DNA of 64,000 bases from Metarhizium brunneum (taxonomy: Eukaryota > Ascomycota > Sordariomycetes > Hypocreales > Clavicipitaceae): the NCBI RefSeq assembly GCF_013426205.1, contig NC_089425.1:1054001-1118000 (forward strand), written 5' to 3'. Shown piece after piece: positions 15,900-59,176 of this stretch. The notes under the pieces were generated by a model. The model ran no database searches. It saw only the letters and a program-made list of their open reading frames with translations, and was not told the DNA's origin. Within the stretch, counting starts at the first letter, position 1. The number at the start of each line of letters is the position of its first letter. The position numbers and the translations under genes are program-made.

Positions 15900-18800
15900 A
15901 TGACGCACCTCCAAAGTCAACCAATCATTTCACATCCTATCGTTGGGGAAAACGTCATGTTCGCAGAAAATCCTGAAGATGTGAAGAGCGTGTCTATTGA
16001 TGACGTTTGGTCTCAAAATGCCTCGGTCCCCGAAACCGTAGAGGCTTGCGTCCATGGTCTTATCAAGCGCACAGTTTGGGAGTTTCCCAATCGCCAAGCT
16101 GTGTGTTCTTGGGACGGCGACTTGACATATCAACAACTAGACAATATTTCCAGCACATTAGCTCATTATCTTGTCGAAATTGGACTCCAAGTCGGAAATC
16201 ATGTTCTCTTGTCCTTTGAAAAATCGTTGCTTGCACCCATTGCGGTCATGGCCGCGATGAAGGCCGGCGGAGTGTCAATTGCCGTAGACGGCTCCCATTC
16301 TCAACTAGCAGGCCCAGAGTCTTCGAAACAACTCTGTGCCTCTCTTTGTATCTCTTCTGCAGCAAACCGTTCGGCATTGACAGATGCAGGTGTGCAGGAC
16401 ATCCTAATTCTGGATCACCAATTTCTATTGGAGCTTTCAACCAGGCCGAGATCTTCACAGTTGCCTAAAGTGACTCCTTCAGATGGCCTCTTTTCAAGTT
16501 TGGACGCAACATCAGAGAATTTTTCTGCGATGGGTACTGTTACCCACAGCCAATTTAGTAGTGCCATTGTATATCAACAAAGGGCGCTTGGGTTCGGCAA
16601 AGACACTCGTACCCTTGATTATATCTCATATACATCCCCTGTGGCCTGGTGTTACTTGCTACACACATTATCCTCTGGGGGCTGCCTCTGTATGCCCTCA
16701 CCTCATCGCGATTCTGGCATCGCACTGCCCAAATCAGCACCAGGCAATGCAAACTGCGCATTTGTTACGCCGGATTGGGCCCATGATTTAAACTACGAGG
16801 ATATATCAACTCTAGTTCAAGTCAACTGTTTCAGCGAAGAGACTACCTTGTCGGACCTTAGCCTAGGAGAAACTGAGCTAACAGTCTTCAGTGCATATGG
16901 ATGTGCCAAGCTGGCTTCGGTCATCCCTATCGCAAAGACAATTATCCCCTATAATGGGGAAGATCAAGCTCTTTCTAGCGATTCAGGCGTCTTCGATGGA
17001 GACTGGAGGGTCAGTGCAATCAAAGCCTCCATACAATCATTGGCGTCAGATGAGTCGAATATGGACGAGACCTCATTCTCCCAACGAGTATATGGACTCT
17101 GCCTATGGATAGTTGACATTGATGATCCAACGTCACTTGCGCCAATGGGCAAAGTTGGTGAACTGTGGGTCGAAGGGCCTTTATTGGGTCAAGGTGGTGT
17201 TGATAAAGACCAGTCTTTTGTGGAAAACCCTCTCTGGCTGGTAAATGGTACTGAGAACCATCCAGGCCGCAATGGATTATTGTTGAGAACCGGTTCCCTA
17301 GCCAAATACAGGCAAGATGGGACCATCCAGCTATTGGGACAAGGTCTAGGAGGTGAAACTTGCGTCGTCCGTGCTGACTTGAGCGCTTCTGAGCTTGACC
17401 TGAGATGGTCTATTTCGAGAGGCCATGACCAAGACTCGGAGCTCTATATACAGCATGATGAGGCTTCTCAAGATGAAGTTGAATCCACAATGCAAAATAT
17501 CTGGGCCGCGATATTGCACGTCGACCCGGCGATGATTAGCGGGGATAGTCACTTTTTCAGAATGGGGGGCGATATGATTCAGGCCATGTTGCTCTGCAAA
17601 GCTGCCGGGTCTTCCAGCATATGCATCAACACCAGAGAAATCTATAAACACCCCTACCTGAAAGATATATCGGAGGTTTGCCGCCGACATCGCTCGAAGG
17701 ATAGGGCAGAACCTAGACCGGCTCTCCTATCTGCCCTCGAAAGCCGAGAAGCACGCTCCCAGATTTCTCGACTATGCAACATTGAAGAATCTAGAGTATT
17801 AGATATTCTTCCCTGTACGCCTTTACAAGAAGGACTATTGGCTCTGACCGTAAAAAATCCCGGCGATTACGTTGCAAGAAACGTTTTCAAAATCGGCAAA
17901 GATGTGGAACTCGTTAAGCTGAAAAGGGCTTGGGATTATGTTGTTATGATGAACACAATTCTACGCACGCGCATAGTCAGCCTTCCTGATAATGGACTTG
18001 TTCAGGCAGTTTTGGCTGAAGAAACGCACTGGGTGGATAGTCTGGCGGAAGAAGACTCAGTGATGAGTTTGGGAACACCTCTCACCCGATTCTCTCTTCT
18101 TCCAGAGAATGCTGAAGGTGATGTTTTTCTATTATGGGAGATCCACCACGCTCTATACGACGGATGGTCAATGAATTTGCTGCTCCAAGATGTGCAAGAT
18201 GTATACTACGGAAATGAGATTCAGGACTTGGAGTCCATGGATGCATTTCTTGATTACGTCACTACTATGGATAAGAACTCTCGGGACGAATTTTGGAGAA
18301 GCCAGTTTGCTGGCATCCAAGGCTGTCACTTCCCAACTCCCAAGAACACAGATAACCCAAGACCTGATCAGAAGCTCGAAGTGTCTGTATCTGATCTAGA
18401 CTGGTTCAACAGCGACTTTACTTCGTCCACTATACTCCGCGCGGCTTGGTGTATTCTGTCTGCGCACAACACGAATTCAGACGAAGCCCTGTTCGGCGTC
18501 ACCGTGACAGGCAGACAAGCTCCAGTTTCAGGAATCGAAAGGATAACCGGTCCTACGATTGCCACTGTTCCTCTGCGCATTGTTCTAGACTGGGACAAAG
18601 ACGTGGAGTCAATATTGCATCGTGTACAGCAACAGTCCGTTGACATGATCCCATTTGAGCAAACTGGCTTACAGCATATCCGCCGCCTGGGAGAAGAGCC
18701 CAGTCTAGCCTGCAACTTCCAAACTCTTCTTGTTGTGCAGCCCCCAAGTGGTGGTGGTAGCGTCGAGCCAGAAGAAGAGTTCTTGACCGAAGTCCACGAT

Positions 18801-21800
18801 GAGGAAAATGCAAACAAGTGGCAAGATTTCAGTACTTATGCTCTAGTCATTGAATGCCAATTGGAGGCAAAAGGAGTTCATGTGCGTTTAGGATTCGACT
18901 CAACACTAGTGTCGGAGACGAAAATGGCACACGTTGCTGCCAACTTGGAGACGGTTATTCGCCAATTCTCTGACCCGCGGCTAAGGAGGCAAACATTGCG
19001 GAACACACTTGGTGAAACACTTACTACTTTTGGCCTAGATCAAATCTGGGCCTGGAATAGAGTTGTGCCAGAGCCTACAGAACTGTGTGTTCACGACTTG
19101 ATTACACAGAGAACCTTGGAGGACTCGTCTGCCCCCGCCATTTGTGCATGGGACGGCCATCTTACCTATGGCCAGTTGGCTGAATTGTCCGAGAATTTAG
19201 CAGAGAGACTAGCCAGTCTGAATGTTCGCGGCTGCCTCATCCCGTTATACTTTGAAAAGTCCATGTGGATGCCTGTAGCCGCGGTAGCTGTCATGAAAGC
19301 CGGCGCCGGTGTTGTCGCTGTGGACATGAAGCTACCAGAGGAAAGAATACGCTCGTTAATCTCACAACTCGGGTCTCCGGTGGCGCTATCATCTGCTGAA
19401 AACCAAGACTTGGTAAGAAAGATAGCTGGCAGCGGCGACGTGTTGATCGTTGGCCCCGGACAGCAATGCCTCGAACCTTTACATTTGCCCACAAAGTTGC
19501 CCCTGGTACAACCGTCCGACACCGTGTACACGGTATTCACATCTGGTAGTACTGGTACACCAAAAGGTGCGATGGTGTCACACGGCAACTTCTGTTCAGC
19601 CATCACACACCAGCAAAGGCGCTTGATGTTCTCCCGCAGCTCTAGGGTGCTTGATTTCTCATCGTATGCTTTTGATGCCTCATGGTGCAACCTAATCCAT
19701 GCTTTGACGAGTGGAGGCTGTCTGTGCATACCCTCGGCCTATGAGAGAGAGAATCAATTGGCTGAGTGCTTCAAAAAGTATAATGTGACCACGGTAGATT
19801 TGACGCCATCTGTTGCACGTATGCTAGGACCAAAGGTGCTGTCCGATCTGAGTACCCTTATCCTGGGCGGCGAAGCCGTCGTCCCTGCTGATGCTTTTCT
19901 GGCTGGAGACAAGACTGCCATCATCAACGTATATGGGCCAGCCGAATGCACACCTACTGTTACTCTATCTGAAGTCTCTGCCGACGGGATCACTATCGGT
20001 CGTGGCGCCGGTGTTTGTACCTGGGTGGTCGACGTGAACAACTCACAAGTCTTGGCACCTCTTGGTGAAATTGGAGAGCTCTGGGTTGAAGGGCCTCTTG
20101 TTGGCCAAGGATATCTTGCGAATCCTGACAAAACAGCGACAGTATTTATTAAAGACCCGGCTTGGCTTTCCAGAGGAGCTCCCGGCCACACCGGGCGGAC
20201 TGGCCGTGTATACCGAACTGGTGATCTCGTACGATATACGAGTTCTGGTGAACTCATCTTCGTGGGTCGCAAAGATACACAGGTCAAGATACGAGGACAG
20301 CGGGTGGAGCTGGAAGATCTCGAGCACCATATTGCAAGTAGTATGGACTCGGTGAAAAGCAACGACATCAAGACCTTGACTGTAGTTGCAGAGACGATTC
20401 GACCAAAACAAGCCTCGAGCGCCGTCTTGGTGGCATTTGTTGCACTCGAAAGCTCCGAAGCCGAGCTGACTGATGAACAGCATCGAATGCTAGTCCAAAA
20501 TCTTGTCCAAGTAAGCAATGATCGCTTGCAGGAAAAAATCCCAATCTATATGGTACCAGCTTCCTATATACCAATACGGAAAATTCCCATGACCCCAAGC
20601 GGCAAAACAGACAGACAGCAGCTTCGAGACATTGCAGAGTCAGCTTGGAAAGAGTACAGAAAAATGCCCGACAAGACTGCCACCCAGGAGATACTGACTG
20701 ATGTTGAGAAGCTGCTTCAGCAAATTTGGATGGCGGTCCTTAATTTGTCTGCTCAAGAGGTTTCAGTTAACAAGGCTTTCACGAGAATAGGCGGCGATTC
20801 CATTTCGGCAATGCAAGTTGTTGCTCAATGTAGGCAGCATAACATTTCCATCACCGTTGCAGATATCCTGCAGTCGGGAACCATAAGGCAATTGGCATCA
20901 CATTGCAAGTCCATCTCGCGCCATTCAGTGCCCGACGACGATGAAGGCGTCGACGAGGAGGGCTCTGAGCCATTCGACCTCTCACCTATCCAACAACTAT
21001 TCTTCGACGCGTATCCAACTGGACTCAACCACTTCAATCAAACCTTTGTGCTAGAGCTGGGATCACTGGTTCCTGGAGCAAGATTTTTCGCCGCCGTCAA
21101 GGACCTTGTTGATCGCCATGCCATCCTTCGGAACCGTTTCCACCGCCCAGCCGCGGGCGCAGCGTGGAAGCAGAGCATAGCTCCCAAAGGTCCATCATCC
21201 TTCGCTTTCGTGGAACACAATGTTTCGAATCGGGATGAGGTCATGCTTTTGTCGCAATGGAGACAGGAACATCTCGACATTGAGAATGGCCCAGTGTTTG
21301 CTTGCGACCTCTTCAACATTGCTGGAGACGTTCAGCTTGTTACCCTGTCGGCACACCACCTCGTCGTCGATCTCGTCTCGTGGAGAATCATCTGGGGCGA
21401 TATTGAAGATCACATCAGGCACGGGAACCTGATCTCGGCCCCATCGACGTCGTGGAAATCATGGCTAAGGCGTCAAATTAGGGCCAACCGTCATGCCTCT
21501 CCCATTTCAGTGCTGCCATACAGCGTTCCGCTTCCGGACCTGGAATTCTGGGGACTTCCCTTGGGTGAGAACACATTCGGCAACTGTACCCTAATCACGG
21601 AGGAATTCGAGTCGTTCGTTACCAATGCGATATTTGGAGATGCCAATGAATGCCTGCGAACGGAGCCTGTGGACATTTTGCTGGGTGCCATGGCGCACTC
21701 ATTTCACCGAATATTCCCGGAAAGATGCCTGCCCACTATTTGGCTCGAAGGACACGGCCGTGAGTACTCGCAGAATCTCCCTGTCGATATTTCCGGAACG

Positions 21801-24800
21801 GTAGGGTGGTTCACGACTCTGCACCCTGTTCCTGTCCCCGTGAAGCCAGGCGACTCCGTTATAGAAGCCATTAGGTTTGCCAAAGATATCAGAAGAAAGG
21901 TCCCTGGAAAGGGTCAGCCCTACTTTGCCTGCCGGTTCTACAGTGAATCTGGTCGCGAGGCCGCCCAGGGACAAGACATCACAGAGGTCACCTTTAATTT
22001 CACCGGCAGATTTCAACAGCTTGAAGCTGAAGAAGGATTGTTCAAACGCCCTGAGCATCTTGGCGACAGTGATTACGACATGGTTGATGTATCACCGACA
22101 GCTCACCGTCTTACCATGATTGAAATCACCGCCGACGTGGAAGACGACTGGCTCATGGTATCGTTCCAAGTTCATCAAAACATGAGACACCAAGAACGAT
22201 TGCAAAGATGGGCCCAGGAGTTTGGAACATCTGTACGGAGCGCGGTCACCGAACTGTCCAAATCGCGTGCCAGCTTCACTCTCAGTGATCTTCCGCTGCT
22301 GCCAATGTCATATGGTGCTCTAGACGCCTTGCTTTGCAATCAGCTTCCCAGTTTAGGAATACAGACCGAGAATGTGGTTGATATTTTGCCCTGCTCTCCA
22401 CTTCAGCAGGGCATTCTACTGAGCTCAGAGAAGGAATCTGCCTCGTATGCAACTTGTTCAACTTGGCGCTGCTTGGCTACCGAGGGAATGGCGACAACGA
22501 TTGAGCCCGAGAGACTACGAACCGCGTGGACCAGATTGGTACAGAGACATCCGATTCTGTCTACTGTTTTCGCTTTACACCCAGAAGGAGATGGTTTCAT
22601 TCAGATTATTCTGAAGAACGCCAACGTCCAGGCCAAGTTTGTTAAGTCTGGCTCACAAGACCCCGATGCCATGCTGAATACTCTTCAACGACCACACTTT
22701 GAGGCCCATGAGCCACAGCACTTATTTTTCGTCTGCCAATCTGACAGTGGGGACGTGGCTTGCAGGTTAGACATCAGCCATGCCCTCATGGACGCGGCTT
22801 CCATGTCAGTCATCTTGCAAGAGTTGATCAACTTGTATGACGGCATTGTGCCTGCGCCAGTGCCGCCGTTTAGACGTGTGATGAGCCATATTTCCAGCAT
22901 TCCTCGTGCCCAGCGTATTTCTCCATGGGTTTCTATGCTTACTGGAGTGACTCCTTGTGAATTCCCGCTCGCAATTCACACCGCCTCCGCAGGTGATGAG
23001 CGCCATGGCGACATCCCCGTGCCGCCGTTGGAATTGGCCGAGGTTTCTAGACTGTGTATGAATCTCGGCATCACGCGTGCTGTTTTCTTCCAGGTTGCCT
23101 GGGCCATGGTCCTTGCAACCTTCACCGGAATGGATGAGGTTTGCTTCGGATACTTGGCCTCGGGCCGGGATGCTCCTATAGATGGTATTGAAGGGATCGT
23201 GGGACCGCTGGCAAATTTACTCATCAGCCGCATTGATTTGAGAGATTCGCCTCGCAACGTCTTGGAGTCTGTCTCCAACAGATCGATACAGCATTTGGCC
23301 ATGCAATATGCATCACTGGCCGAGATTCAGCACGAATTGGGTATTTCAGGAAAGAAATTGTTCAACACGTCTTTGTCCATCAGGGAGTCGGATAAGCTAA
23401 AGAGCTATGAAAAGAGGAGTTTGTCATTTGAGGCCAGTGCCGGAGAAGATCCCCATGAAGTAGGTTATCTGAATGATAGTTTCCTTACTGTGAGGAGTCG
23501 CCGCTAACAAGTTGCAGTTTGACATGGGCCTCAGCGCCAGCATTGATGGCAGCAACATTGATCTTGTTGTGGAGTATCGAGAACCTTATATCCAACAATC
23601 TGTTGCTGCTCAGGCATGTGATGTCTTGTCCATGGCCGTGACTTACCTCCTTCAGACCAATTATGAAAATCACTTACTCGAGGGCGAAATAACTGTGTCC
23701 TCTAATGTCTCATTATTTGATGGTTTCTACAAACAGATTGTTGGGACTGATGAAGTCACAACCACCGCCTTTTGGAGAGAGCAGTTTCAAGGAACCACGG
23801 GCAGTCATTTCCCGTCACCGCCAGCAGTCCAGCGATCACGAACATACAAAGAGGTTTCGCTCTTCCAAAAAGGTGGCCTACACCTCGACAGTGACATTGA
23901 GTCTCGTACTTATATTAAAGCGGCTTGGGCCATTGTTGCAGCAAGAATGCTGGATTCCACAGAAGCAATATTTGGTCTCGCATCTGACGACCACTCCCTA
24001 CTACCGGTTCGTATCCCCATCACTTGGACCGGGAATGTAAACAACCTCCTCCAGTCTATTCAGAAACAGGGACAAGATATGGAGATTTTCAAAAGAACCG
24101 GACTGCAACGAATCCGCCGCATTAGTGCTGAAGCTTCTCTGGCATGCGACTTCCAGAGCGTTCTCTCCGTCAACAACGATGATGCTCAACAGGTGCAGTC
24201 GGGCGACTATGCCATACTTTTGAAGTATATCAAGACACAGTTGGGGTCCTGCGTTAGCATTAAATTTGATTCCAGCACACTGTCCGAGAACGAGGTCACG
24301 CGGCTGTTTTATCAATTCGAGCATGTGCATCAGCAACTTCTCAGCCCGGAAGCAGGTGAACTCAAGGTGCAGGATGTGTCAATCACGAGCAGCAGAGACC
24401 TCCAGGATATTTGGACTTGGAACGCCAAGCTTCCCGAAGCCGTGTCCGACAACATGCCTCGCATGATCCGTGAGACTGTCCACCGACAACCTGGCGCTAC
24501 CGCTATACATGCATGGGACGGATCCCTAAGCTACCAACAACTGGACGACTTGTCTACTACTCTGGCCTATCATTTGAGAAAGGTCGGGGTCGAAAAGGGG
24601 GACATGATTCCGCTGTGCTTTGAGAAATCCATGTGGATGCCAGTCTCTGCATTGGCCATCATGAAGACTGGCGCTGCGTGTGTTGCTACAGATCCGTCCA
24701 ACCAGCCAGAGGAGCGTTTACGAGGCATGACGGCACAGATCGAAGCAAAGACAATCTTGGCCTCTGTGGCCTATACCGACATGGCCAAAAGGCTAGGCGC

Positions 24801-26292
24801 TGGCAACGTCATATCAGTGGATCTTGAACGACTATTCGAGTTTGCCCTGTCTTTGGACCACGAACCCAGCCTTCCGGAAATCGATGCCTCGGATATTCTG
24901 TATATAATATTTACGTCCGGCACCACGGGCGTGCCCAAGGGTGCCATGGTCACGCATGGGAATTACTGCAGCGCAATTGTTCACCAGAGAGAGTTGCTTG
25001 GCTTCGAAAGCAACTCGCGCGTTCTGGACTTTTCATCGTATGCGTTTGATGTGGTATGGTCTAATATGATGAATACCCTGACGGCAGGCGGATGCTTGTG
25101 CATACCATCAGCTGAAGAGCGGCAAGACAGCATTTCGGGCTGCTTAGAAAAGTACCAAGCTACAGTGGCGGATTTCACACCATCCGTCCTGCGCAATATC
25201 GAGCCAAAGACGGCCCTCACGCAGCTGTCCACGATGCTTCTAGGTGGCGAGGTTGTCCTGCCCAGCGACGCACAATATGTGCGTGAAGGGGCACGCGTAG
25301 TCAGTGCATACGGACCGGCAGAGTGCACGCCAACCAGCCTGATATTGCCCTTGACTTGTCACAGCGACGGTGGCTTGGGTCTTGCATCCGGGCTATGCAC
25401 CTGGGTTGTTGATGCGGAGCATCCTGACAGATTGGCGCCCATTGGGACAGTCGGCGAGCTTTGGCTGGAGGGAGCCCTCGTCGGAGCAGGGTACGTCAAC
25501 AGCCCGGCGAAAACAAAGGCAGCGTACGTCCAAGATCCCGAGTGGCTTCTTCGAGGCGTTCCTGGTAAGCGGCCTGGCCGCCGCGGCCGAGCGTACCGCA
25601 CGGGAGATCTGGTGCAATACCGCGAGGACGGCAGTCTCGTATTCAAGGGCCGAAAAGACACGCAGGTCAAGATTCGCGGACAGCGAGTAGAGCTGGAGGA
25701 AGTCGAGCATTATGTGCAAGATGCGGTTTCCACTGCTGCGCAAGGCAACATGGTGACAGTTGTAGCCGAGACAATCCGGCCAACGGGCAGCCACGGAATC
25801 ATGTTGGTGGCATTTGTTTGTATGGGTTCCGGGGACGAAGTGAGCGATCAAGACTACGAACAGGCAGTACGAGGTGCAACGCGTGGTGTCGCTGGAGGAT
25901 TGGGCGAGCGGCTACCGCCATTCATGATCCCGAGCGTATTCATTCCGGTTCGAAACATTCCCATGACGCCGACGGGGAAGACTGACCGTCGGCACTTGCG
26001 CAGCTACGGGTCTTCTCTGACGTTGACGGATATCGCCGCCTTGAGTCGCACTGAGGGCGAGCGCAGGGCGCCGACGACTGATTCCGAACAGTTGATGCAG
26101 GGACTTTGGGCTGAAGTGCTCAACATGGAACCTGACAATATCAGCATCGACGACAGTTTCTTCCGTATCGGGGGTGATTCCATCGGGGCGATGAAGCTAG
26201 TTGGTTTGGCACGCAAGACTGGCTTGCCACTTGCTGTCAAGGATGTGTTCAAGTATCCGGTTATGCGGGATCTGTGTACCCTTTTGTATTAG
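15900..26292 (+). CDS. Non-ribosomal peptide synthetase, A*-T*-C-A-T-E-C-(half C)-A-T
   Basis: Two exons, 15900-23459 and 23518-26292, are joined by a 58-nt phase-0 intron (donor GTAGGT, branch GCTAAC, acceptor TTGCAG). Together they encode 3444 aa. Domains by approximate residue: degenerate A1 50-540; T1 near 559, with GGDM instead of GGDS; C1 636-1070 with HHALYDG; A2 1080-1590 with FTSGSTGTPKG and AFDASWC; T2 with GGDS near 1631; an epimerisation domain 1697-2130 with HHLVVDLVSW and VGWFTTLHP; C2 2160-2575 with SHALMDA; a C-terminal half of a further C domain 2595-2750; A3 with FTSGTTGVPKG and AFDVVWS; T3 with GGDS near 3405. The protein ends right after T3, with no TE, reductase or terminal C domain. 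The working core probably links a D-configured residue (A2-T2-E) to a second residue (A3-T3). Both working A domains keep the Asp that binds the alpha-amino group. Confidence 0.93.
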
Positions 26293-31950: not shown

Positions 31951-33145
31951 TTACTCTACTCCTCGGCGCCAAAATGCTTCCTCCTCCTCGTCTTTAGTCT
32001 CTTCAATTCTCAGAGCAAATATAATCACAACCCCAGGCATCGCCATGCAAGCTGCGATCAACAAGGGCAGCCCTAGTCACTGCCCACCCCAAGGGAGATC
32101 TAGCCGGAAGCTCGAGGCAACAACAGGACCAGAGGCTATGAAAGCCAGGGCTTGAAGCAGCTCCATGATGGAGAAAACCATCCCGGTGCCTGCATTTCTG
32201 GCCGAATAAACAATGAGACTACGCATTGCCGGCTCCAAACAAAGGCTAAACGCAGAAAGTACAACGGCGTTGGCGTCTCAGGTAGTAGAAGCGACATCAG
32301 GAGCCCAAAGAACTGGACAAGCATTGATACAGCAAACGTGAGCCATTGCCCCCGAGATGGAGTGGCGTGGGTAATTGGTCCACTAACGAGGACAGCGACG
32401 AGCCGTGAGGTTGTTAAAAGCGAAAACGTCATGGATCTATCAGTACAATATTGCGTGAGCGTTGGACCGGTGCGAATGGTATGAAGGCAAGGGCATGAGG
32501 TGAAAGTTATACGCATCTCTGTGATTTGGACACGACATCATTCGCCATGGCAAACAGAATTGACAAGGCAATGGCCGAGCCACCGCCGACAGCTGACGTG
32601 AGAGTCACAGCCCCAAGAAGCCGTGACGGAAATGTATTAGGAAAGCGGCCTTCAGGGGCGTTTAAATTTGTTGTCGGTTTATGACAGCCAAGGCGAACAT
32701 ATACAGACGACCATTGCGGTCAGAGCATACAGGGTACATTCCATTGCAGATAGGATGACGATGGGCTTGCGGCCATAGACGTCAGCAGCCATTCCATAGG
32801 GAATACTAAACAGTAGCGTCGGCAGCAGACCAAAGGTGCTCGCCAAACTCAACACCAGCCACAGCTCGGCCTGCACCTCTGCGTCCTTGCAGCGCAGGTC
32901 CGCGACTGGGTTCGTGACGATGGGGTGAGGATCTGGCAGATATTTCCCTCCATGGTCTGAGTCTGGGCCGTGTGGAAGATACTAGGATACAGCGTCAAGA
33001 AGAACATTGAAATGTACCCAAACACAAGAACAGGAACCTGGTGCGACGAGGCCTGCGATTGTACCGTGCTTGTGCCATCCCGGACTCTGTCTCCCCGGGC
33101 CAAAAGAGGTTCCTGTTCTTCCCTGGCCGCATTAGAAGAGGTCAT
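31951..33145 (-). pseudogene. Major facilitator superfamily transporter pseudogene
   Basis: The start at 33145 gives a hydrophilic N-tail (MTSSNAAREEQEPLLARG) and TM1 (VLVFGYISMFFLTLYPSIF). The next part, KDAEVQAELWLVLSLASTFGLLPTLLFSIPYG with the MFS loop motif GMAADVYGRKPIV, is in another frame, indicating a one-base loss near 32945. Later segments include a TM region ending FAMANDVVSKSQR, SMTFSLLTTSRLVAVLVSGPI, SLCLEPAMRSLIVYSARNAGTG and the last TM GLPLLIAACMAMPGVVIIFALR. They need a further frameshift near 32250 and reading through a TGA after DLPWGGQ. The remaining length and topology match a fungal drug/H+ antiporter-like MFS protein. Several independent breaks indicate loss of function. 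It lies beside the peptide-precursor and HxxHC genes. Confidence 0.8.
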
Positions 33146-33476: not shown

Positions 33477-34133
33477 TTAACCAACTTTTGCCTGTGCCAA
33501 CATGACGCATCTATTATGTGAAGCCTTGATAACTGTATCCTTGATTCTGTAATGTTGGTCCAAGGCCGTATCCGCACAATGCACGGTATGGTTGAGGCGC
33601 GAGATGAACTCTGGCACTGGCTTGTTCATTGACAGTGCGTAATGCATCAGCTCCCAGTCGTACAGGCAATGCACGACATGAAGCCGATGTTCCGACCACA
33701 CATGTGGCGTATGCATGAGGATCTCAATGTCTTGTGGCAGCTCCTTTGTGAAGTTCGAGTCGGCGTACCACTTGAGCGCCCCCTGCGCGCGTGTCGAGTC
33801 CCAATAATGCTTGTAGACTTGTTCATGGAAGCACTCGGGCGGCTGCCAGGAGTAGTTGATGGCGTCGAACTTGCAGCCCAGAGCTAGAGCTTCTTCCGTG
33901 TTTGATCCGCAGTGGTTGATGGAGCCGCCGTCAGATGAAGGCCCTAATCGCAGAGTGAGAGCTTCCAGAGCCAGTGTTGCCAGAGCCAAGGCGGCGATGA
34001 TGGTTGCGAGGGCCACGACAACTAGTCGTTTTGTATCAAGGGATGGTGTAAACCTGCGCAAGCAGTATCTGTAGGCCACATCTTGCTGCACCCTTTCCCC
34101 AAATCCGGATTCAACGCTGTTCTGCGAAAGCAA
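33477..34133 (-). CDS. Single-pass membrane protein with two HxxHC motifs (UstY/DUF3328-reminiscent)
   Basis: An open frame of about 218 codons ends at 33477. It holds a basic N-terminal segment and one strong membrane helix (LVVVALATIIAALALATLALEAL). A predicted extracytoplasmic domain follows, with GCKFDAINYSWQPPECFHE, then HRLHVVHCLYDWELMHYAL and RLNHTVHCADTAL. The two H-x-x-H-C motifs, one TM segment and about 220-aa size recall the UstY-type DUF3328 oxidases that act on ribosomal peptides in dikaritin pathways. Fungal proteins of this exact subtype are uncharacterised, so the relation is inference. No ATG exists in frame at the 5' end, so a first short exon upstream (perhaps near the ATG at 34174) must be spliced on. 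The start given is only the open-frame limit. It sits 0.9 kb downstream of the repeat precursor on the same strand. Confidence 0.55.
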   Translation of the reverse strand: MLSQNSVESGFGERVQQDVAYRYCLRRFTPSLDTKRLVVVALATIIAALALATLALEALTLRLGPSSDGGSINHCGSNTEEALALGCKFDAINYSWQPPECFHEQVYKHYWDSTRAQGALKWYADSNFTKELPQDIEILMHTPHVWSEHRLHVVHCLYDWELMHYALSMNKPVPEFISRLNHTVHCADTALDQHYRIKDTVIKASHNRCVMLAQAKVG

Positions 34134-34492
34134 GATTTGGTTGTCGCTCTCTTCTCACACGCTTGAACGCGGCATGATAGAGGGGAGATGGGATTAGCGA
34201 GGGAAGGAAGTGAGATGACTGAGGTGGTGATAGATGCCTGACAATCGCAGGAGAAATAGGCTGCAGACTGCTGAGGAAATCGCCATCTGAGTGAATGACG
34301 TAGCCCATAAAATAGGCCACTACCTGTTAAAAGCTGGTATTGCTATACTTGACTCTGCAGTCTGTTTGGAGCAAAAGAAAGCTACCCCACAGTCTCTTAT
34401 CTCGCTCTAGCACGATTTCAATCTTGCCTTCCGCTGTGCCCCTCCCGGCGATAGCTTTGTTGTCGCACAGGATATAGGGGGTACAAACAATT

Positions 34493-35028: not shown

Positions 35029-35580
35029 TTACACAACTGTGCCGTGTGTAGTCTGGCGCCCTCTAAGAGTACTCTCTTCCTGATATGAGGCTATTTGACT
35101 GCAATGTACCTGGGACAATTCATCATCGTCGGCTTTGAAAGGCTGCAGAGACTTAGTCAATTGCTTTACAAGTCAAAGGCTGAATGCTTGAACGCACCTG
35201 GAACTGAGAATCACGCTTATAAGCAGCGTCGTCATCAGCCTTGAAGGGCTATACACACTCAGTGGACGTCTTGGAAATGCGGACATTGCGTACCCAAACC
35301 TACCTAAAACTGAGGGGCACGCTTGTGAGAAGCGCTGTCGTCGGCCTTGAATGGCTATGCAGACTCAATTAGCTGCTAGAAAGGCCAAGGCAGACTGCTC
35401 AAACAAACCTGAAATTGTGGACTGCGGGCCACGTCTGTAACACTGTAAGTGATCTTGAATGTCTCCTGATTCAATTGTCCCGGGCTTGGTGAGAGGGAAC
35501 TTACGGGTCTCATCATTGCGGACAACAATAGTAGTAGCTGCTGCCAGAGCGGCAAAAGCTACATAAAGGATAGACTTCAT
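35029..35580 (-). CDS. Secreted Kex2-processed repeat peptide precursor (RiPP/KEP-like) with repeat-per-exon structure
   Basis: Five-exon model: 35505-35580, 35409-35434, 35304-35354, 35198-35248 and 35029-35142. Exon 1 encodes the signal peptide MKSILYVAFAALAAATTIVV. Intron 1 (GTAAGT...GTTACAG, 70 nt) joins it in frame to HVARSPQFQ. Exons 3 and 4 are each exactly 51 nt, begin and end in phase 0, and encode PFKADDSASHKRAPQF(stop) and PFKADDDAAYKRDSQFQ. Exon 5 begins PFKADDDELSQ and may extend to the TAA at 35031-35029. Introns of 54-55 nt separate them. Lys-Arg pairs fit Kex2 cleavage, predicting peptides of the type (S/A/D)xQFQPFKADD(D/S)AA(Y/H). Exon 3 ends in TAG where exon 4 has CAG, so the full product may be truncated unless exon 3 is skipped or the stop is a decay mutation. 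The peptide lacks the Trp/Cys pattern of hypocrealean alpha-pheromones. The function is unknown. Confidence 0.6.
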
Positions 35581-40228: not shown

Positions 40229-42053
40229 GGTGAAGGAGAGGCGGGAATAGGCAGGGAATTGGCTGTGAGTTTACTATCAATTGATGTCTCTATCGACCAG
40301 ACCACGGATGGCGCAGACGGCGGAACGGCCCATTGCCCTTATAGTAGACATGGACGCCTGTCTCCTTGATTCAATGTTCCCAGCCAGTCTGCCAGTCTGC
40401 CCGCCCCATGAATCCATATTGATCGCAGCTATCAAATCCGCCCCGGTCCGGCCGCGTAATGGATCGCATTGCGCCAATAGTTCCATTCCGACGTTGTCAT
40501 CTCAATTGGCCCCGAGACGAGCATCACATCCCTCAGCCAGCCACCAATCCCCAATTCCGGTCGTGTGCAGCTGTTTATTGCATTGACAGCTGCTGGTCTC
40601 TGGGTGGCCGAGCTGTGAGCTGAAAGCCATTGATTCCATGCGACCAAAGCCGGGATACCAGACGGAACCAACCGTCAAGTCGACGTTGACCCCTCTTTCC
40701 ACGGCTGTTGCGGGCATCAACTGATGGAACATTGAAATGTCCGGTCGTACGCGGGCTACCCAAGCACTTAAGTAGCACATGTACGCATGTGCACATGCAT
40801 GTACATATGTCCGGTAGCCTCTTTGTTACATCACAGATCGGTCAGCTTCAATGTCATCTGTCATGGATGCGTCTGCCGCTTGTGACATCTGCGGTCTCCG
40901 CCCTCGACCCACATATATCGGCAGTTCAGCAGCAAAGCAAAGACGACATGCATGTGGGATATTGACGTGACGTTGACCTCGTTGCCAGGTGCCTTCACAG
41001 CATTGCATTTGTAGAAGAGGGGTCAAAGAATGAGACTGGCTGACGCCAGAGTGACGATATCTGCATTCATACTTCCCACGATTGCCTGCGTCAAGGTCCT
41101 TGTCAATTGCTGTTTTCCCCTCGTCATCGATCGGGCCCTTCTGGCAACTTGTCCGGCCATCTCGTAAACACTATACAGACACCTGGCATGGACTCTAAAG
41201 TCTGGTGCAAGTTTAAACCCGTGCTTCAACTTGCACAATAAAAAAAGTATCCCGTGAGGAAATAACGCCAACGAACCATGGCCTGCTCTACAGCTGTTCC
41301 CAACTCTCCTTATATTTAATTTTCGTTATTCATTTGATAGCTTCTTTCATCCAAGATACCATTGACGTTGACTTGCTTTATCGTTACATGGCTTCACAAT
41401 TCACAAGTCGTTGCTTCCTGCAATTCCTGATACCGTGTGCCCAACGCACAAATAGCCATTTGATCAAAAGATCCTCCGGCTCAAGCAGCTGCCTGTAATG
41501 CACCTTGCATTATAGATAAGGCCTGCCTACACGGGTGACCGGCCCGCGGCCGCAGCTGTAGTGCCATACACTTTCTAAATAATTTATTGCCTAGAGCGCT
41601 TAGAGACTTGCATATGTGGTTGGTTTCTGCATGAAGACCTGCAGTAGCTGCCTTGCTTTCAACATCTGGCACAAAAGGTTTCAATATGCGGCTGCATAGA
41701 GATGAAAGAGGAAGTGCCTAAAAGAGCGGTCAGCTATCAAGCCGGTTAGTTTCATAGATCAATTTTATGCAGCAATGGCCTTGTAGCTGGACCGCCACTT
41801 TGCGGTCGACACCTTGGACCTCGTGTCACAGCCAGCTTTTGCGAATTGTACCTCTGTAAGAAGGGATTGATCCGCTCTTGTTGTATGTTCTCGGGCGTCC
41901 ATCTTCAGGTCGCACGAGATAAAGCCTCAAAACTGTAAGAAAGAAGGGGAAAAGAAGAAAGAGAAAAAAAAGACACGACCTGGCACTAGACTTGTCCTTG
42001 TACTCCCAGCGTTGCCGAGCTTCACTGGCAATCACAGTTGCCCCTTGACCGCA
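40229..42053. promoter_or_regulatory. Divergent promoter region between the 781-aa gene and the TcA-like gene
   Basis: This is 1.8 kb without a credible gene. It includes an alternating purine-pyrimidine block rich in catg/tgca words (40777-40810, gtacgcatgtgcacatgcat and onward) and an A/G-rich tract just before the TcA-like start (about 41935-41972). Confidence 0.4.
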
Positions 42054-45000
42054 ATGCCTTCTGAGCTAGACGAGAGGCGCTTGAAGGAGGCCAAGAAGCT
42101 CCTGCAAGGCCTGGTAAAAGACAGCAGCAGACTCTTCGCCGCACTCGACCGCACGAAAAGTATTTCTCAGGCTATTGACTCGGTTGGCACTGGTGTTGGC
42201 AGCACTCCAGAGTCGCAACGCCGACTCGCCCTCCTCGCGGACCTGGACCGGGCAGCGGCAGGAAATGTCGAACTCGCCAGCCTGTTCTGGGGACAGAGCC
42301 AGGTTCGCTCCATGTCCGATGCGGCTCGCTGCTACGGCCTTCTGCTCGACCGCGAGGGAGCCGGCGTGGAGGACTTCCAGATGAGATTGTTTGCAGAGCA
42401 GCCGACGGCGACCATTTACAGCCTGGTAAGAGCGGGACACCTCACCATCCAGCCGAAAACCATCCAAACCGCCGTGGTCAATTTGCTTGATAGAGCCGTG
42501 TCGTCTGGGTTCAACATTGGTCGCGACCCAGTCGACAGGCTGCTAAGCAAAGTGGACGCGCTGAGTGCTGGGAAGAAGAAGGATGTCGAGGCGCTCAAGA
42601 GCTTTATCCAGAAGCTTCAAAGACTGCAGGCCCTGGTGAGACTGCCGCAAGATCTCGATGCGCTTCTGAAGTCGTCATTCATGTCTGCGCACCAGATCGC
42701 CCACACGCCGAGGCACTCATTCGTTACAGTCATCGGCCGCCACGGCATTCCAGCCGCGAGCGCCGTCCGCATACACAACCACGCGACGCTCGTGGACATG
42801 CGTAACGAACAAGCGTGGACGGCGCTCCTGGCATCGAAACACGACGTCTCGCTCGCCGCCTTGGCTCGCCCGAAAGCTGCGCCGCCGGTATTGGCAGCCT
42901 CGGCAGTAGCCTCGACGACGGCCCCCTCGCCGCAGGTCACCAGCTACACAAAGATCTTTGGCGACATGACAATCGGGGCCTGTGACGACTGCAGCTCCGT
43001 CAGCAGCCCGGCGGCCTACTTCGTGGACCTGCTCCGGATGCTGAAGAACACGCCGAGCGATGCCACCAAAACCGATTCACCCAGCCTCCTCGACAAGATG
43101 GCAACCCGACGACCCGACCTGTTGACGCTGCAGCTGTCCTGTGTCAATACCAACGTTTTGGTTCCGTACATTGACCTCGCCAACGAGGCGATGGAGTCCT
43201 TCATTAAGAACGTCGGCAGCCTCCTGCCGCCATCGCCCGTCCCGATCCAGGGGTTCAACATGACGGACCAAGACACCAGCGAGGTCAGTCTCTCCGAACC
43301 GCAACACACCGACTACAGCGTCTACAGCAATCAGATAGCGGCCCAGGCGTTTCCGCTCACCGTATTTCCGTACAGTCAGGCGCTCGACCTCCAGCGCCTC
43401 TTCTTTGCGCATCTCAACGCATCGCTGGCCGACGTGATGGTGCTGTTTGGTTCCGCGTCCCGCCTCTTGTCCAAAACACCGACAACAGACACACTTGGTC
43501 TAGCGCAAGACGTGTTGCAGAGCGCGCAGGCGGCCGAGTACCTGGGGCTGTCCCCCGCCGATTACGTCGCCATCACCGGCGCCTCCATCTTCTCCCTCGA
43601 CTTCTTCAAGGCAGTCCTCGACCCGAGCATGCAGCAAGACGCGTACAACGCGAAAATTGGCCTTTTAAGCACGGCGGCGTACTGGGGCTACGAGGCCGCC
43701 GGCGGACAAACGGCAGCGCAGCTGATGCTGTCCGAAGTGGACGAAAAGGGGCTGCCCTTCGTCAAGGCCCAGCTGCTCCGCCGGGCGGACATGACGGTTG
43801 TGGATCTGCTGGATCTGCTTCGGGCGAGAGTGCTCCAGCGCCAGCTCGTGCTTGAGAACGCGGATGGCTCGGCCACATTTTCCGGCGAGCTCCAAGACCT
43901 GCGGCTGCGCCACCCGACGAGCAGCAATGCAAAGGCGCCGCTGACGGAGCTCGATTGTTGGCAGCTGCAGTCGTATATCCGGCTCTGGCGCAGGACCGGG
44001 TGGACGCTGCAAGATCTCGACTGCGCCATTGTTGCATTCGGCGGCGGCGGCGGCACGCGGGTCACGGCGCAGACAATCACGGCCATGGCGGCGGTTCAGC
44101 GCATCTCGGCGCTGACCGGCGTCGACGTGTTCCGGCTGATGCCCATGTGGGGGCCGATGGACACGAATGGGGACCGGTCTCTCTACGCGCGACTCTTCCT
44201 AAAAGCCAAGTCTGGCCGGCCGGACCCGGTGTTCGGCCCGGACGCCCAGGGGCAGTACCTCACGGCCGGTGCGGGTCTGATGGCGAACCGCGCCCCGCTC
44301 CTGGCGGCGTGCGGGCTGACGGAAGAGGGCTTCGCCACTGTTGTCGCGGCGGCCAAGATTACCAACGATAAGCTCGATCTGGCCAACCTGACGGCCGTCT
44401 ACCGCATCGCCGTCTTCTGCCAGTTGCTCGCCGTCGACCCGGTCGACTTTGCGAGCTTGCAGGCAGTCCTGGACCCGAGCCAGTCCGCGTTTGTGAGCCC
44501 CCAGGCGGCCCTCGACGTCATCCAGCAGCTCCAGCAGTTGACCGACGCCGGCCTCAGCCTGGAGCAGCTGCTTTTCCTCACAGGCAATGACGCAGCTCAG
44601 CGTGCCAGGCAATCGGATACAGAGCTTCCCGTCCAGCAAGTCGCCGTCGCCGCGTCGGATGTCATGGTGAACATCCAGAGCCGGATGGCGGCCCTGCCGG
44701 CCGTCGATGCGCACACGACGACGGCGTCGCCAGCAGATGTTGCGGCTGCTGCGGCAGCACTCTACGACCATGAGACGGCGCAGCTAGCCGTGACATTTAT
44801 TGAGAGTAAGTCTTTCGCCGCGATGATGGTATTAATGCCTGGCTAATCTTGTAACCCTAGTGCTTCCCGGGACACCCATCACGGAAGATTCCACCGTGTA
44901 CCAGAGTGTTCTGCTTCCCTACTTCTCCGGCGACGCCCAAGCTGCACACAAGGTCTTCTTCGAGCAGCCGGATCCGACGGGGACAGACGAGGAGAAGGCC

Positions 45001-48000
45001 ATTGCGCGCGAAAACATCCTCGATGCCCGGCGGGTGTTTTTTCTGCAGCACGTCATCGGGCCGCTTCACGCGCGGGCAGCCAAGGATGCCGTGCTACAAT
45101 CCATTACACCCCTATTCCCAGATGTCAAGGCGGCTGTGCTCGGTTTCCTGGTAGAAACTGTTCAGGAGCCGGGGTCGCAGGAGGGCGGGCATCAACCTGC
45201 ATCCCACACCCTCATTCTCGATGTTCTCGGCGGCCTCGCCGCTTCCAACGCGGCAGCTCTCGCCAAGGACTCTTCAGACGTCTTCTTCCGGCCCCCGACC
45301 GCAGACCTTTACCGCTTGTTCGTTCCCGACACGACTCTTACCGCCAGCCCTCTGGTGACCTTGGACGGCAACACCCTCCTTTTCGACAAGGGCACTGATG
45401 GGTGGACATCCAAGCCGGTCCGTCTCTCCAACGGTCAGGCGTACAGCTTGCGCCGCTCAGATGACAGCGGTCTGGCGAGCTGCTCATATTTGACAGAGCG
45501 AAGTCCAGGTCGGCCGTTTGCCCTCGGCGCGTTGATGGCGCGCGAGACGGTTGTCCTAGCGCAGACGGTCTTGCTGTTGCTCTCCCGGGCGGTGCATCTG
45601 TCCACAAGCTTCGAGCTGAGCCTGGATGAAGTACAATTCTTCCAGGGCCAGTCTTCCAGTGGCAGCCTGTTTATTGACTGGGGAAACATCGATTACCAGG
45701 CAATCCAGCGGGCGAAGAGTTACCGGGAGCTGGCTCGCCGGCTGAATGGACCGACGGTCCTCCTGGACTTCTTGAAGTGGACGCAGGGATCTTCCCGGGA
45801 TGGCACCCTCGCCAGCAGTCTTGTGAGCGTCACGAATCTGTCCGCCGCTCAGATTGCCGACTATCTGGGGCAGAGGTTCGCTGGCCTCAGTGAACAGCAG
45901 CTGATTGAGGTTTTTGCGGGAACGGCAGAAGTTGCACGGCTGCTGGACCGCGTCGCCTTCATGAACCGCACGGGAGTGCCGGGCTTGACTCTCAAGCTCC
46001 TGTTCGCGCTCGCGACGCCGGTGCCTCCGCCGACTGCGACGATTGACTTCGATAATGCGGACCAGCTCCGGTGCCTCTTGCAGTCGACGCCGGCCTCGGG
46101 CAACGGCGCGGATCTGGCGACGCAGGTCAACGGCGGGCTGCGGCAACACCAGCGCGATGCCCTGGTCAACTACCTCGTCCAGCATCCCTATATCACCAGC
46201 CGCGGCATCACCGATGCCGACGGGCTGTTCGAGTTCCTCCTCATCGACGTGCAGATGGGCGCGTGTCTCCAGACGTCCCGCATCAAGCAGGCCATCTCGA
46301 CGGTGCAGGTGTACGTGCGCCGCTGCATCCTCGGCCTCGAAAAAGGGGAGCAGGTCGCCAGCAACACGGTCAATCTCGACCGCTGGGCGTGGATGGAGGG
46401 CTACCGGCTGTGGGAGGCGAACCGCAAAGTGTTCCTCTACCCCGAGAACTGGCTCGACGCCAGTCTGCGCGACGACAAGACCGACGTCTTCCGGGCGCTC
46501 GAGTCCGGCATCTTGCAGAACGACCTCGACAGCGCCAAGATTGTCGACCTCGTCAAGGGCTATGTGTACGGCGTCGACGCCATCGCCGACCTGGACGTGC
46601 AGGCCTACCTGTGGAAGAAGGTCGAGGACTATACCGGCACATTCCACTTCTTCGCTCGCACAAGGGCAGCGCCCTACATCTACTACTACCGCTCGCTGGA
46701 CATTGTCCCGAGTCCTTCGGGCCACGGCATCAAGATGTACTGGCAGCCTTGGTCCAAGATTGACGTCGAGGTCCCGGTTCACGAGGTCGGCGCCGACGGC
46801 AAACCGTTGCCCGTGTCGGGTTCATACCTGACTCCGGCGTTGTACGGAGAGCGCCTGTTTCTCCTTTTCCCGCAAATCACCCTCAAGACGGACCCCAACC
46901 CCGCTGCCAAGGACAATACCATCAAGACCATGGAAGATAAAAAGCCGGACGAGATTAAGCCGACCAAGTACTGGCAGGTCCAGATCGGCTGGACAGAGTA
47001 CCGCAACGGCCGGTGGACGCCCAAGCAGATCTCGCAGGCGATTCTTGAGGTCCGAGGGGCCCAGGACACCGACTTCCCGGTCAAGGGGAAGACGCTCCCG
47101 GCAGCAAATATCTGGGCTGAGGCACAGAAACTCCCTGACGTCGCCTCGCTCAAGTTCTGGATCCGGTCCCGGCCCAGCTCCTCGATCCCTTCGGGAGCAT
47201 CGTCCACGGTCGCGGCGTCCTCTCCGGGGCCCAGGAGCGCTCCCGCCCCTAGCACCAGTATCTTGGTCATCGAGGTGGAACGCTGGATCGACGCTGGCGC
47301 CGGGCAGACACCGCGGTACCAAAACTATCCGCTTGGCCGGTTCGAAATGCGTGGATCGCAGGTCATCCTCGCCAACCTCAGCGCCCTCTCTGGCCAAAAC
47401 GATCCCTTCCTGACCCCCTGGCGGCCTACCATCCCGACTGTCTTTGCAAAGATGTCGTACCATATGGCAAAGGCCACGGACAAGCCGACCCCAGGCATTA
47501 CCATCGGCCGAGGAGCGAGCGACAAGGAGCCGCTGCTGGGTATCGTCTCCAAGCTGGTGGACAGCACCCCGAAGAAGGACGTGGTCTGGACCATGTCGTT
47601 TAATGATTCCCAGGTCCGGAATGCGACCGGTTTCATCCAGGACATCATCACCACGGAAAGCACCATCTCGTATGTCACCTACCCCCCCATAGCGTCTACC
47701 ACCACCTTTGCTTCTGACGTGTTCCAGCACACGCTGGACCGAGACCTCGTGTCCATGTCCACGGCGTACGACGGGGTGGACCAGGTTTATGCCTTTCTCG
47801 CCAGCGTGCCTGCCGATGACGCATTCCTCGCCTTTGGGAAACGCAACGGGACCGTTCACGAGCTCTCGACGCCCTACGCCCTCTACAACTGGGAGCTCGG
47901 CGCGCACACCGTCATGCTGCTCATGGAACGGCTGCAGGTCAACCGGCAGTACGACCTGGCCCTCCAAGTGGCGCACCTGGTGTTTGATCCCACCGTCGAC

Positions 48001-50757
48001 GGGACCAGCCTCGACCGCTGCTGGCTGTTCCCGCCCTTCAAGGAGCTCGCCGACGGGACCATTGACTCGGTCGAAGACATCCTGAAGCGTCTCCAGCCGT
48101 CCAGCGGCGCCGAGAGCGAGATGAAGACGAGCATCCTTGACTGGCGGACGCATCCATTCAACGCGCACAGCGTGGCGCGGAGCCGGCCGCTGGCGTACAT
48201 GCGACGCATCATCATCAACTATATTGAGATCCTCATCGCCAGCGGCGACGTCTATTTCCGGCAGAACACGCTGGAGGCGCTGCCCCTTGCCATCCAACGC
48301 TACGTCGAGGCCTCGCACATCTTTGGATCGGCCCCGGTGCGGGTTCCCCAGCTCGCGAAGCCGACTTACAAGTCGTATAACGACCTTGCCAGCACCTTGG
48401 ACGATTTCTCCAACGCCGCTTTCGACATGGAGCTCGACTTTCCGTTCTTCAGCGACCCAGCATCGCGAGGCACAGGCACCGGGGCGAACGGGGCCGCAGG
48501 GCTCACTGGTATCCTAAAGTCGACGTATTTCTGCGTTCCCGCGAACCCGAAGCTGGTCCAGCTCCGGGATCTCATCGACGACCGGCTGTTTAAGATTCGC
48601 CATTGCCAGGACATTAACGGCGTCGTCCGAAGCCTGGCACTCTTTGAGCCGCCCCTGGATCCGGGCCTCTTGGTCCGCGCGGCGGCGAGTGGCGTGGACA
48701 TCTCTCAGCTCGTGGGCAATGTCGTGGGTCCCATGCCCAACTATCGCTTTCAATATCTGCTGCAAAGGGCGTTTGACATTTGTGCCGAGGTCAAATCCAT
48801 GGGAGCCTTGCTATTGTCCATCCAGGAGCGGAAGGACACGGAAGCGCTGTCAAACCTCCATGCCCGTCAGGACAAGGTGCTACAGGGGCTGATGATAGAG
48901 ATGAAAAAGACGGCAAAGAAGGAGGCCGAGGCGAGCATCGACGCGCTTCTGGAAGTCCGCAAGTCCCAGGTGGCCCGGCTGGAATACTACCTCGCGCTCA
49001 CGGGGACTGACGACCACTCGGCCCCGGATGAGACGCAGGACTGGGAGGACATCACGCAGTCCATCGAGAAGCCGACGTCGGATGATTTGCGAATGACATC
49101 GCACGAGAGGCTGGAGATGGAAAAGGCCGACGCCGCTGCAGATCTCAACCAAAAGGCCACCATTCTCGACATTGCCGCCAGCATTGTCAAGATCATCCCG
49201 GACATCAGCGAGGAGGCGGAGCCCCTCGGCGTCGGGGTCTCCATTGACTCCGTCACCAAGAACATCTCCGAGGCGATGCTCATCAACGCGAGCGTCATGC
49301 GCTTCCAGGCGCAGTACTTCAGCGACGAGGGCGCTCGCGCCGCGAGAACCGGCGCCCTCATCAGGCAGCTCCAGGAACGGCGCCTGGAGGCCAACATGGC
49401 CGGCCGGGAGATCAAGCAGACGGACAAGCAGATCGCGACGGCCCGCATCCAGGTGGAAATGTGCGAGCGCGACATGCAGTTCCAGCAGCAGCAGGCCGAC
49501 TATGCGCGGGACACCGAGGCCTGGCTCCGGACCAAGTACACCAGCGAGGAACTGTACGCCTGGATGGACGGCGTCGTCCGCGACCTGTACCACCAGACCT
49601 ATCTCATGGCCGAGGACCTCGCCCAAAAAGCCCAAGCGGCGTTGCGCTTCGAAAAGGGCGACCAGTCCATCAACATCGTCACCTCGCCCTACTGGGACGA
49701 CGGCCGCGACGGCATGTTCTCCGGCGAGAACCTCTACCTCGCGCTCAAGCGCCTCGAAGGTGCGTACATGGACCAGCGCCTGCACGACGTCGAAGTAGTC
49801 AAGGACGTCTCGCTCCTGCAGGTCCGGCCGTGGGCGCTGCTGGCCCTGCGCGAGACGGGCACTGCCGAATTTGACCTCCCCGAGGTGCTCTTCGACTTTG
49901 ACTTTCCCGGCCACTACTGCCGCCGCATCACCTCGGTGAGCATGACGGTCTCCTGCGTCGCCGGGCCACACACGGGCGTCAACGCGACCCTGACGCTCCT
50001 CGAGCACTCGTACCGCATCAAACCGGACGCCAGGAACGCGCAGGACTATCCCCGAAAGACGCCAGACGACCGCTTCCAGACTGACCGGGTGCCCATCACC
50101 TCCATCGCCGTCAGCCACGGCCAGGAGGACAGCGGCGTCTTCGACCTCGACTTCCGGGACGACCGGTACATCCCCTTTGAGGGGGCGGGCGCCGTGAGCC
50201 GCTGGCGCCTCGAGCTCCCTACCGCCGTGAAGCAGTTCGACTACAATTCCATCAGCGACGTTGTCCTACAGGTCAAGTACACGGCGCTCCAGGGCGGCGC
50301 TGCCTTTCGCAAGGCGGCGTCGGACGCGGCGGTCGCGTTTCAGAAGACGGCCTCCGGGCTGTCGAGGACGGAGGGCATGTTTGCCCTGCTGGACTTGAAG
50401 AATGACTTTCCGGACGAGTGGCAGCGTCTGGTGTCGGCGGATAAGACGAAGCCGTCAACTATGCCGCTTGCTTCTCTGCAGGACCGTCTGCCGTTTTTTA
50501 CGAGGGGGAAAAGCGTCAAGGCGGAGACTGTCTCGGTTCTTGTTGCGGCGGGCGCGGCGGTGAATATGACGCAGGATATTACACTGACTGCGTCGAGCAA
50601 GATTCCTCTGCAGGCTGGGACGGCAATAGGCTCGTACCAGGTGGCTGTGGCGACGGGGCAGACGGTGACTGTCGGCGACTGGAGTCTCACTCTATCGGCT
50701 AACGCAATGAATGCAAGTGTGTCGAGGATCCTTGTTCTGTTTAGATATATTTTGTAG
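42054..50757 (+). CDS. Tc (toxin complex) A-subunit-like protein
   Basis: Two exons, 42054-44805 and 44861-50757, are separated by a 55-nt intron (donor GTAAGT, branch GGCTAATC, acceptor CCCTAG, phase 1). They encode about 2882 aa, somewhat longer than bacterial TcA proteins (about 2300-2500 aa). Family marks: the N-terminal SPAAYFVDLLRML region with a preceding acidic/Cys cluster (near residue 320), of the VRP1/TcA N-terminal type; long helical and coiled-coil stretches between about 48.8 and 49.5 kb, where TcA forms its shaft; and the C-terminal TcB-binding-type motif FRDDRYIPFEGAG followed by SRWRLELP near residue 2680. Bacterial TcA subunits form pentameric pore-forming injectors loaded by a TcB-TcC cocoon, but no TcB or TcC gene is present here. 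No signal peptide is seen. High GC and the bacterial family suggest ancient horizontal acquisition with later intron gain (inference). No stop or frameshift interrupts either exon. Confidence 0.88.
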
Positions 50758-59036: not shown

Positions 59037-59044
59037 TATATAAA
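59037..59044 (+). promoter_or_regulatory. TATA box of the A-T-R gene
   Basis: tatataaa lies 133 bp upstream of the proposed ATG at 59177 and is followed by a pyrimidine-rich stretch (cacccttctcttccttgctt), a common fungal core-promoter layout. Confidence 0.5.
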
Positions 59045-59176
59045 GCAGTCACCCTTCTCTTCCTTGCTTTTAGCAACTCAAGACCTTGGAGACCCTTCGA
59101 GATTATTATTGAATTGAGCCCTTGTCACAACACATCCCCAATTATTTCAGGCACTCGCAGTCTTCATTGGACCACT

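Follow-up and report, generated by a model that had tools for sequence, protein, structure and literature searches.

We have identified, in a stretch of 64,000 nucleotides (nt) from Metarhizium brunneum (contig NC_089425.1, positions 1,054,001 to 1,118,000; hereafter the window), a repeat-peptide precursor gene whose units are split over separate exons. A sequence-only reading had described it as a Kex2-type repeat precursor, and similar units flanked by KR, KK or RR, found in the window DNA and in related proteins, support that description. We consider it likely that the locus encodes the precursor of a Kex2-processed repeat protein (KEP) of Metarhizium, within a small dikaritin-like cluster that is decaying in this strain, and the cluster probably no longer makes its product here. 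That reading had also taken the gene to be a working one, which is not supported: the first repeat exon ends in a stop codon, codon 7 of the neighboring gene is a stop, and a gene resembling transporters of the major facilitator superfamily (MFS) is fragmented.

All positions below are those of the window, the precursor gene is read on the minus strand from 35580, and genome searches covered 7 contigs with 37,771,916 bases. The gene fits a model of five exons in which all four introns run GT...AG, introns 2 to 4 being in phase 0 and intron 1 in phase 1. Exon 1 (35505-35580) encodes a putative signal peptide, recognized by eye, and the start of the pro-region (MKSILYVAFAALAAATTIVVRNDET...). Intron 1 (35435-35504; 70 nt, GTAAGT...TTACAG) has two possible acceptors 8 nt apart, of which the second keeps the frame. 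It is followed by exon 2 (35409-35434; 26 nt), which contains the start of unit 1, HVARSPQFQ, and is covered by the alignment to the relatives from M. anisopliae and M. robertsii described below. Intron 2 (35355-35408; 54 nt), exon 3 (35304-35354; 51 nt; PFKADDSASHKRAPQF, then an in-frame TAG), intron 3 (35249-35303; 55 nt), exon 4 (35198-35248; 51 nt; PFKADDDAAYKRDSQFQ) and intron 4 (35143-35197; 55 nt) follow in turn. Exon 5 (35032-35142) encodes PFKADDDELSQ and an unconserved tail that runs to a TAA at 35031-35029. The same layout of 51-nt exons, a last exon beginning at 35142 and phase-0 introns of 54-55 nt had been proposed from the letters alone, and it was borne out. A scan of the window against Rfam gave no match at the gathering score.

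This anatomy is not a product of chance, because an annotated 80-residue protein of M. anisopliae (E5D57_009235) aligns with the window precursor without gaps over all four junctions, at 81% identity (E 2.8e-32). A second annotated 80-residue protein, X797_010326 of M. robertsii, shares 77% identity and is likewise ungapped at the junctions; both are known here as proteins, and each contains three units, all open. The frame expected to be conserved in related genomes was thus found in both species. A protein search had returned three matches at E <= 0.001 among 47 candidates, and an alignment search returned six at E <= 10 among 686, these three included. Two of the six, P0017 and P0018, are short intron-blind frames that cover the first two exons with intron 1 between them and then enter intron 2, inside which they stop; the DNA of introns 1 and 2 is therefore present in two further sequences. 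Exon 1 of the window aligns with the N-termini of P0017, P0018 and the two annotated proteins, and a hydrophobic N-terminus similar to that of the window precursor, judged by eye, is found in these four and in P0003.

The remaining relatives suggest that a unit does not always form an exon of its own. P0003 (two complete units) and P0016 (three) are diverged, and several of their units are contiguous. Both leave the repeat right after the next QFQ into donor-like letters (VRP, VST), and they appear to enter an intron there, after several units. If this is right, they meet an intron at QFQ|PFK, the site used in the window, so that the site would be common to these genes, yet not every unit would carry an intron. 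The proposal that every repeat is a separate exon applies to the window gene and, judging from the protein letters of P0003 and P0016, may not extend to the family at large.

The exons do not coincide with the peptide units. Exons 3 and 4 are permuted relative to them, each running PFKAD...KR-xxQF(Q), and each predicted peptide would therefore span two exons, across an exon junction. Three units flanked by KR-type sites are present in the window DNA, with a stop after the first: read in the frame in which exons 3, 4 and 5 all encode PFKADD, exon 3 closes with a TAG as its final codon (35304-35306), at a place that is open in P0003 and in the M. anisopliae and M. robertsii proteins. The frame is thus not open through all units in this strain, and the predicted spliced product would contain one complete unit and end four residues into the following one. 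A mature unit written earlier as APQFxPFKADDDAAY spans this stop, its x standing for the TAG; the permutation of units and exons had gone unnoticed. The terminal Tyr is missing from units 1 and 3 of the three in the window; it ends all three units in M. robertsii and two of three in M. anisopliae. After PFKADDD, the C-terminus of the window precursor cannot be aligned with those two proteins, both of which end in a short tail with a terminal Tyr.

The repeated exons appear to have spread together with their introns. Between exons 3 and 4, 38 of 51 bases are identical. Intron pairs were scored against 1000 shuffles, counting those that scored as well as the real pair: none did so for introns 2 and 4 (37 of 57 alignment columns identical) and six did for introns 2 and 3, with no likeness beyond shuffling for introns 3 and 4 (240/1000). 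Intron 1 is unlike the others (934/1000 against intron 2, 184/1000 against intron 3 and 341/1000 against intron 4). The resemblance of introns 2 and 4 had been noticed before, along with the duplication of an exon-plus-intron block; the former is upheld and the latter is supported by two of the three intron pairs (2/4 and 2/3). Duplication of such a block is well supported by these comparisons, and it is plausible that copy number has changed through exon duplication over evolution.

Searches for a second precursor in the genome used the M. robertsii protein, retyped, which matched this locus alone (three pieces, E 0.001-0.008), and P0003, which matched nothing, this locus included; since P0003 missed even this locus, the negatives are weak. 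A degenerate pattern for contiguous QFQxFK units gave two matches elsewhere in the genome and one in a backward control.

Immediately downstream on the same strand lies a gene for a membrane protein with two HxxHC motifs (33480-34175, minus strand), UstYa-like by motif. Its motifs are HVVHC and HTVHC. All 232 residues are matched at 91% identity by M. anisopliae E5D57_009236, with a single TGA at codon 7 (34157-34155); codon 7 is open in the relatives, and the next in-frame Met is at 154, past a hydrophobic span identified by eye. A 39-nt GT...AG stretch (34122-34160, minus strand) that would excise this TGA in frame was rejected as an intron because the relatives code through it and it is very short; it is probably a coincidence. 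A search over 470 candidates yielded twelve relatives of the neighbor, including one from Beauveria. Both HxxHC motifs occur in 12/12, and the hydrophobic span is kept in all except P0008. In an alignment of 13 members that leaves P0008 outside and includes a paralog at 23% identity, both motifs and a set of Cys, Gly, Phe and Asp residues are invariant (13/13). The tags of precursor and neighbor are consecutive in M. anisopliae (E5D57_009235 and E5D57_009236), and P0017 and a relative of the neighbor, P0006, are both listed on a contig of 31,649 nt, which we take to be the same one. Pfam scans of the neighbor and its relatives gave only unrelated names below threshold.

The third member of the putative cluster is an MFS-like transporter remnant (31981-33145, minus strand) whose pieces lie in three frames. 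For one piece there is an MFS_1 match at E 0.0025, short of the Pfam cut-off, and the genome holds six paralogous matches to it, the best at 37% identity over 68 residues; two of the six (C1:5220790 and C1:6849188) lie within ~6 kb of Pfam UstYa matches.

We propose that the cluster comprised three genes, for the KEP precursor, the twin-HxxHC membrane protein and an MFS-like transporter. In relatives with an intact cluster, the precursor would be routed into the secretory pathway and be cut by Kex2 after KR to release XPQFQPFKAD...Y units. A STE13-type dipeptidase may then take off their leading XP, and the twin-HxxHC protein may oxidize or crosslink the Tyr or Phe of the unit. The layout of one exon per unit would have arisen by tandem duplication of the exon-plus-intron block of ~106 nt. 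The simplest reading of the stops in two adjacent genes, the apparently scattered frames of the third and the absence of the terminal Tyr from two of three units is that the entire cluster is decaying here.

Several points weigh against this interpretation. The neighbor is absent from the 30 Pfam UstYa (PF11807) matches listed for the genome, PF11807 matched none of the 13 members of the twin-HxxHC family, and hhalign against seven UstYa pieces of the genome, themselves poorly aligned, gave a probability of 0.2 of 100. The AlphaFold model of the neighbor is too weak to be of use, also for a fold search, with a predicted local distance difference test score (pLDDT) of 51. The neighbor therefore resembles a dikaritin enzyme in motif, topology and genomic company only, and the dikaritin link suggested earlier is possible through this adjoining gene and finds no backing in a Pfam or profile match. 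The core of the units has no YxI motif. The putative identity of the transporter comes from one match below threshold, four of the six MFS paralogs are away from the listed UstYa matches, and some of the frame changes in the remnant could be introns. Loss of the terminal Tyr is weak evidence of decay because the M. anisopliae precursor, annotated as intact, lacks it in one of three units. Both stops come from one assembly, and splicing and the peptide product are predicted from sequence.

The best-surviving alternative, which we consider possible and rather unlikely, is that the gene encodes an unmodified KEP processed in the manner of alpha-pheromones, by Kex2, Kex1 and STE13 trimming only, and that the twin-HxxHC neighbor has another target. 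Of the 16 units counted by eye in the window, P0003, P0016 and the two annotated proteins, 13 begin with XP, which is described as a STE13 signature in the available parts of PMC9769878 and PMC6339444, and the third unit of P0003 begins with QFQ straight after KKR, as if XP were dispensable. However, the first units are preceded by a single R (AR) or by neither, rather than by KR. The twin-HxxHC gene also adjoins the precursor, as the M. anisopliae tags show and as a second contig appears to repeat, and its family stands in another KEP cluster: a paralog of the neighbor (C3:119212) adjoins Pfam UstYa matches and lies ~4 kb from a classical KEP precursor of the GYI type (L021). The window gene does not encode the mating pheromone itself, for which C1 carries its own precursor, with five WC...PCW units.

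An error of assembly or sequencing, with the cluster intact in the strain, appears improbable to us. A single assembly was read and intact copies exist in relatives, but the lesions are of differing kinds in adjacent genes, and a coverage of 100x is reported in the available part of PMC11457142 for M. brunneum ARSEF 4556, very likely the source of this genome. Slightly less probable still is a gene that works through skipping of exon 3, which would leave a two-unit precursor in frame. Skipping does keep the frame, because exon 3 is 51 nt long with phase 0 on both sides; against it, exon skipping is rare in fungi, and the TGA of the neighbor and the MFS pieces lying in different frames indicate that the cluster is decaying. 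Recoding of the stops in RNA, by A-to-I editing or by read-through, is hardly credible here: such editing of stop codons occurs in the sexual stages of some Sordariomycetes and could in principle act on UAG as well as UGA, but the MFS frame changes would be left unaccounted for. The decaying dikaritin-like KEP cluster is thus the reading that we retain.

As a within-genome control, 19 stretches of 9-10 kb spanning all 30 listed Pfam UstYa matches and one paralog were examined, together with the pheromone locus. A repeat scan of these stretches, which required 9/12 identical residues and basic pairs close by, found the window locus with 9/12, exactly its threshold, and weaker split precursors may therefore be missed. 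Four other KEP-type precursors were found. Besides L021, these are a precursor of the SFIWDW type near Pfam UstYa matches, with four units around PQGSFIWDWA (L028:6392-6655, C3:177191-177454, plus strand); a precursor of the DYFIG type, whose six near-identical units are built around TVEDYFIGA and which lies ~0.6 kb from a Pfam UstYa match (L034:5844-6089, C1:5227843-5228088, minus strand); and the alpha-pheromone-type precursor on C1, with its five units in one open frame (L050:693-1571, minus strand). The pheromone pattern has eight matches in the genome, five of them at one locus, and one in a backward control. The frame of the units is uninterrupted in all four, which suggests that the split-exon architecture is unusual among the KEP-type precursors examined in this genome, sought near UstYa genes and elsewhere through the pheromone pattern only. 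None of the other pairs raised by the scan (L021 upstream and antisense, L028 antisense, L030, L037 and the window at ~55.3 kb) looked like a precursor on inspection by eye.

No KEP with one exon per unit, nor this gene, is named in the titles and abstract starts of the open-access literature searched, and the M. anisopliae and M. robertsii locus tags led to no relevant paper there. The words 'intron' and 'exon' are absent from the main texts of two KEP surveys (PMC7329392 and PMC6339444), and 'intron' occurs once in PMC9769878. SP7-like effectors were considered as a precedent and rejected, since, as far as the available text describes them, they have one conserved intron, placed before the first repeat.

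Repeat-peptide genes are usually sought via tandem repeats in proteins or open frames, and a precursor built of 51-nt exons escapes such intron-blind scans. The relatives form a natural series from contiguous to exon-split units, which offers material on how introns enter and multiply within repeat genes. Should the lesions prove genuine, at least one M. brunneum strain that serves in comparative genomics can do without the cluster. A bolder proposal, which we regard as a long shot, is that in the Metarhizium lineage a spliceosomal intron was fixed inside a KEP unit and the block duplicated. Each peptide would then be joined over an exon junction, and splicing choice, in addition to DNA copy number, could set the number and kind of chimeric peptides; in this strain the stop-bearing exon might even be skipped and a shorter precursor retained.

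Other features of the window were also observed, all on the plus strand. A large non-ribosomal peptide synthetase, recognized by eye, occupies 15858-26292 in two overlapping frames (15858-23507 and 23494-26292). Two adjoining very long frames of 991 and 1973 residues lie at 41871-50757, the first of which has a sub-threshold Pfam VRP1 match (E 0.014) and looks insecticidal toxin-complex-like by eye. An open frame at 55028-56098 has many imperfect DTSYEPP-like repeats near its start. At 58964-62284 a protein resembling non-ribosomal peptide synthetases combines adenylation, carrier and reductase domains (AMP-binding, PP-binding and NAD_binding_4).

Among known systems, the window gene shares a hydrophobic N-terminus and near-identical units separated by KR with KEPs, as described in the parts of the surveys of Umemura 2020 (PMC7329392) and Le Marquer 2019 (PMC6339444) available to us. 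It differs from them in splitting its units over separate exons, with a junction inside each peptide. As in the dikaritins ustiloxin, phomopsin and asperipin-2a, a KEP precursor has a twin-HxxHC membrane protein gene next to it, and an MFS-like gene is nearby; dikaritin clusters carry transporters. In contrast to the dikaritins, the neighbor matches neither Pfam UstYa nor its profile, the core has no YxI and the cluster is broken. In ARSEF 4556, a Fungal-RiPP (ribosomally synthesized and post-translationally modified peptide) cluster with 14% similarity to phomopsin is listed in the available part of PMC11457142. Ascomycete alpha-pheromone precursors likewise have basic cleavage sites followed by XP and repeat units; the window core is QFQPFKAD-like, whereas theirs has WC...CW. 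By description, the locus is also like the epichloecyclins of Epichloe, whose gigA encodes a kexin-cut repeat precursor with a variable number of repeats, in a cluster with a UstYa-like gene, according to the part of PMC8982410 available.
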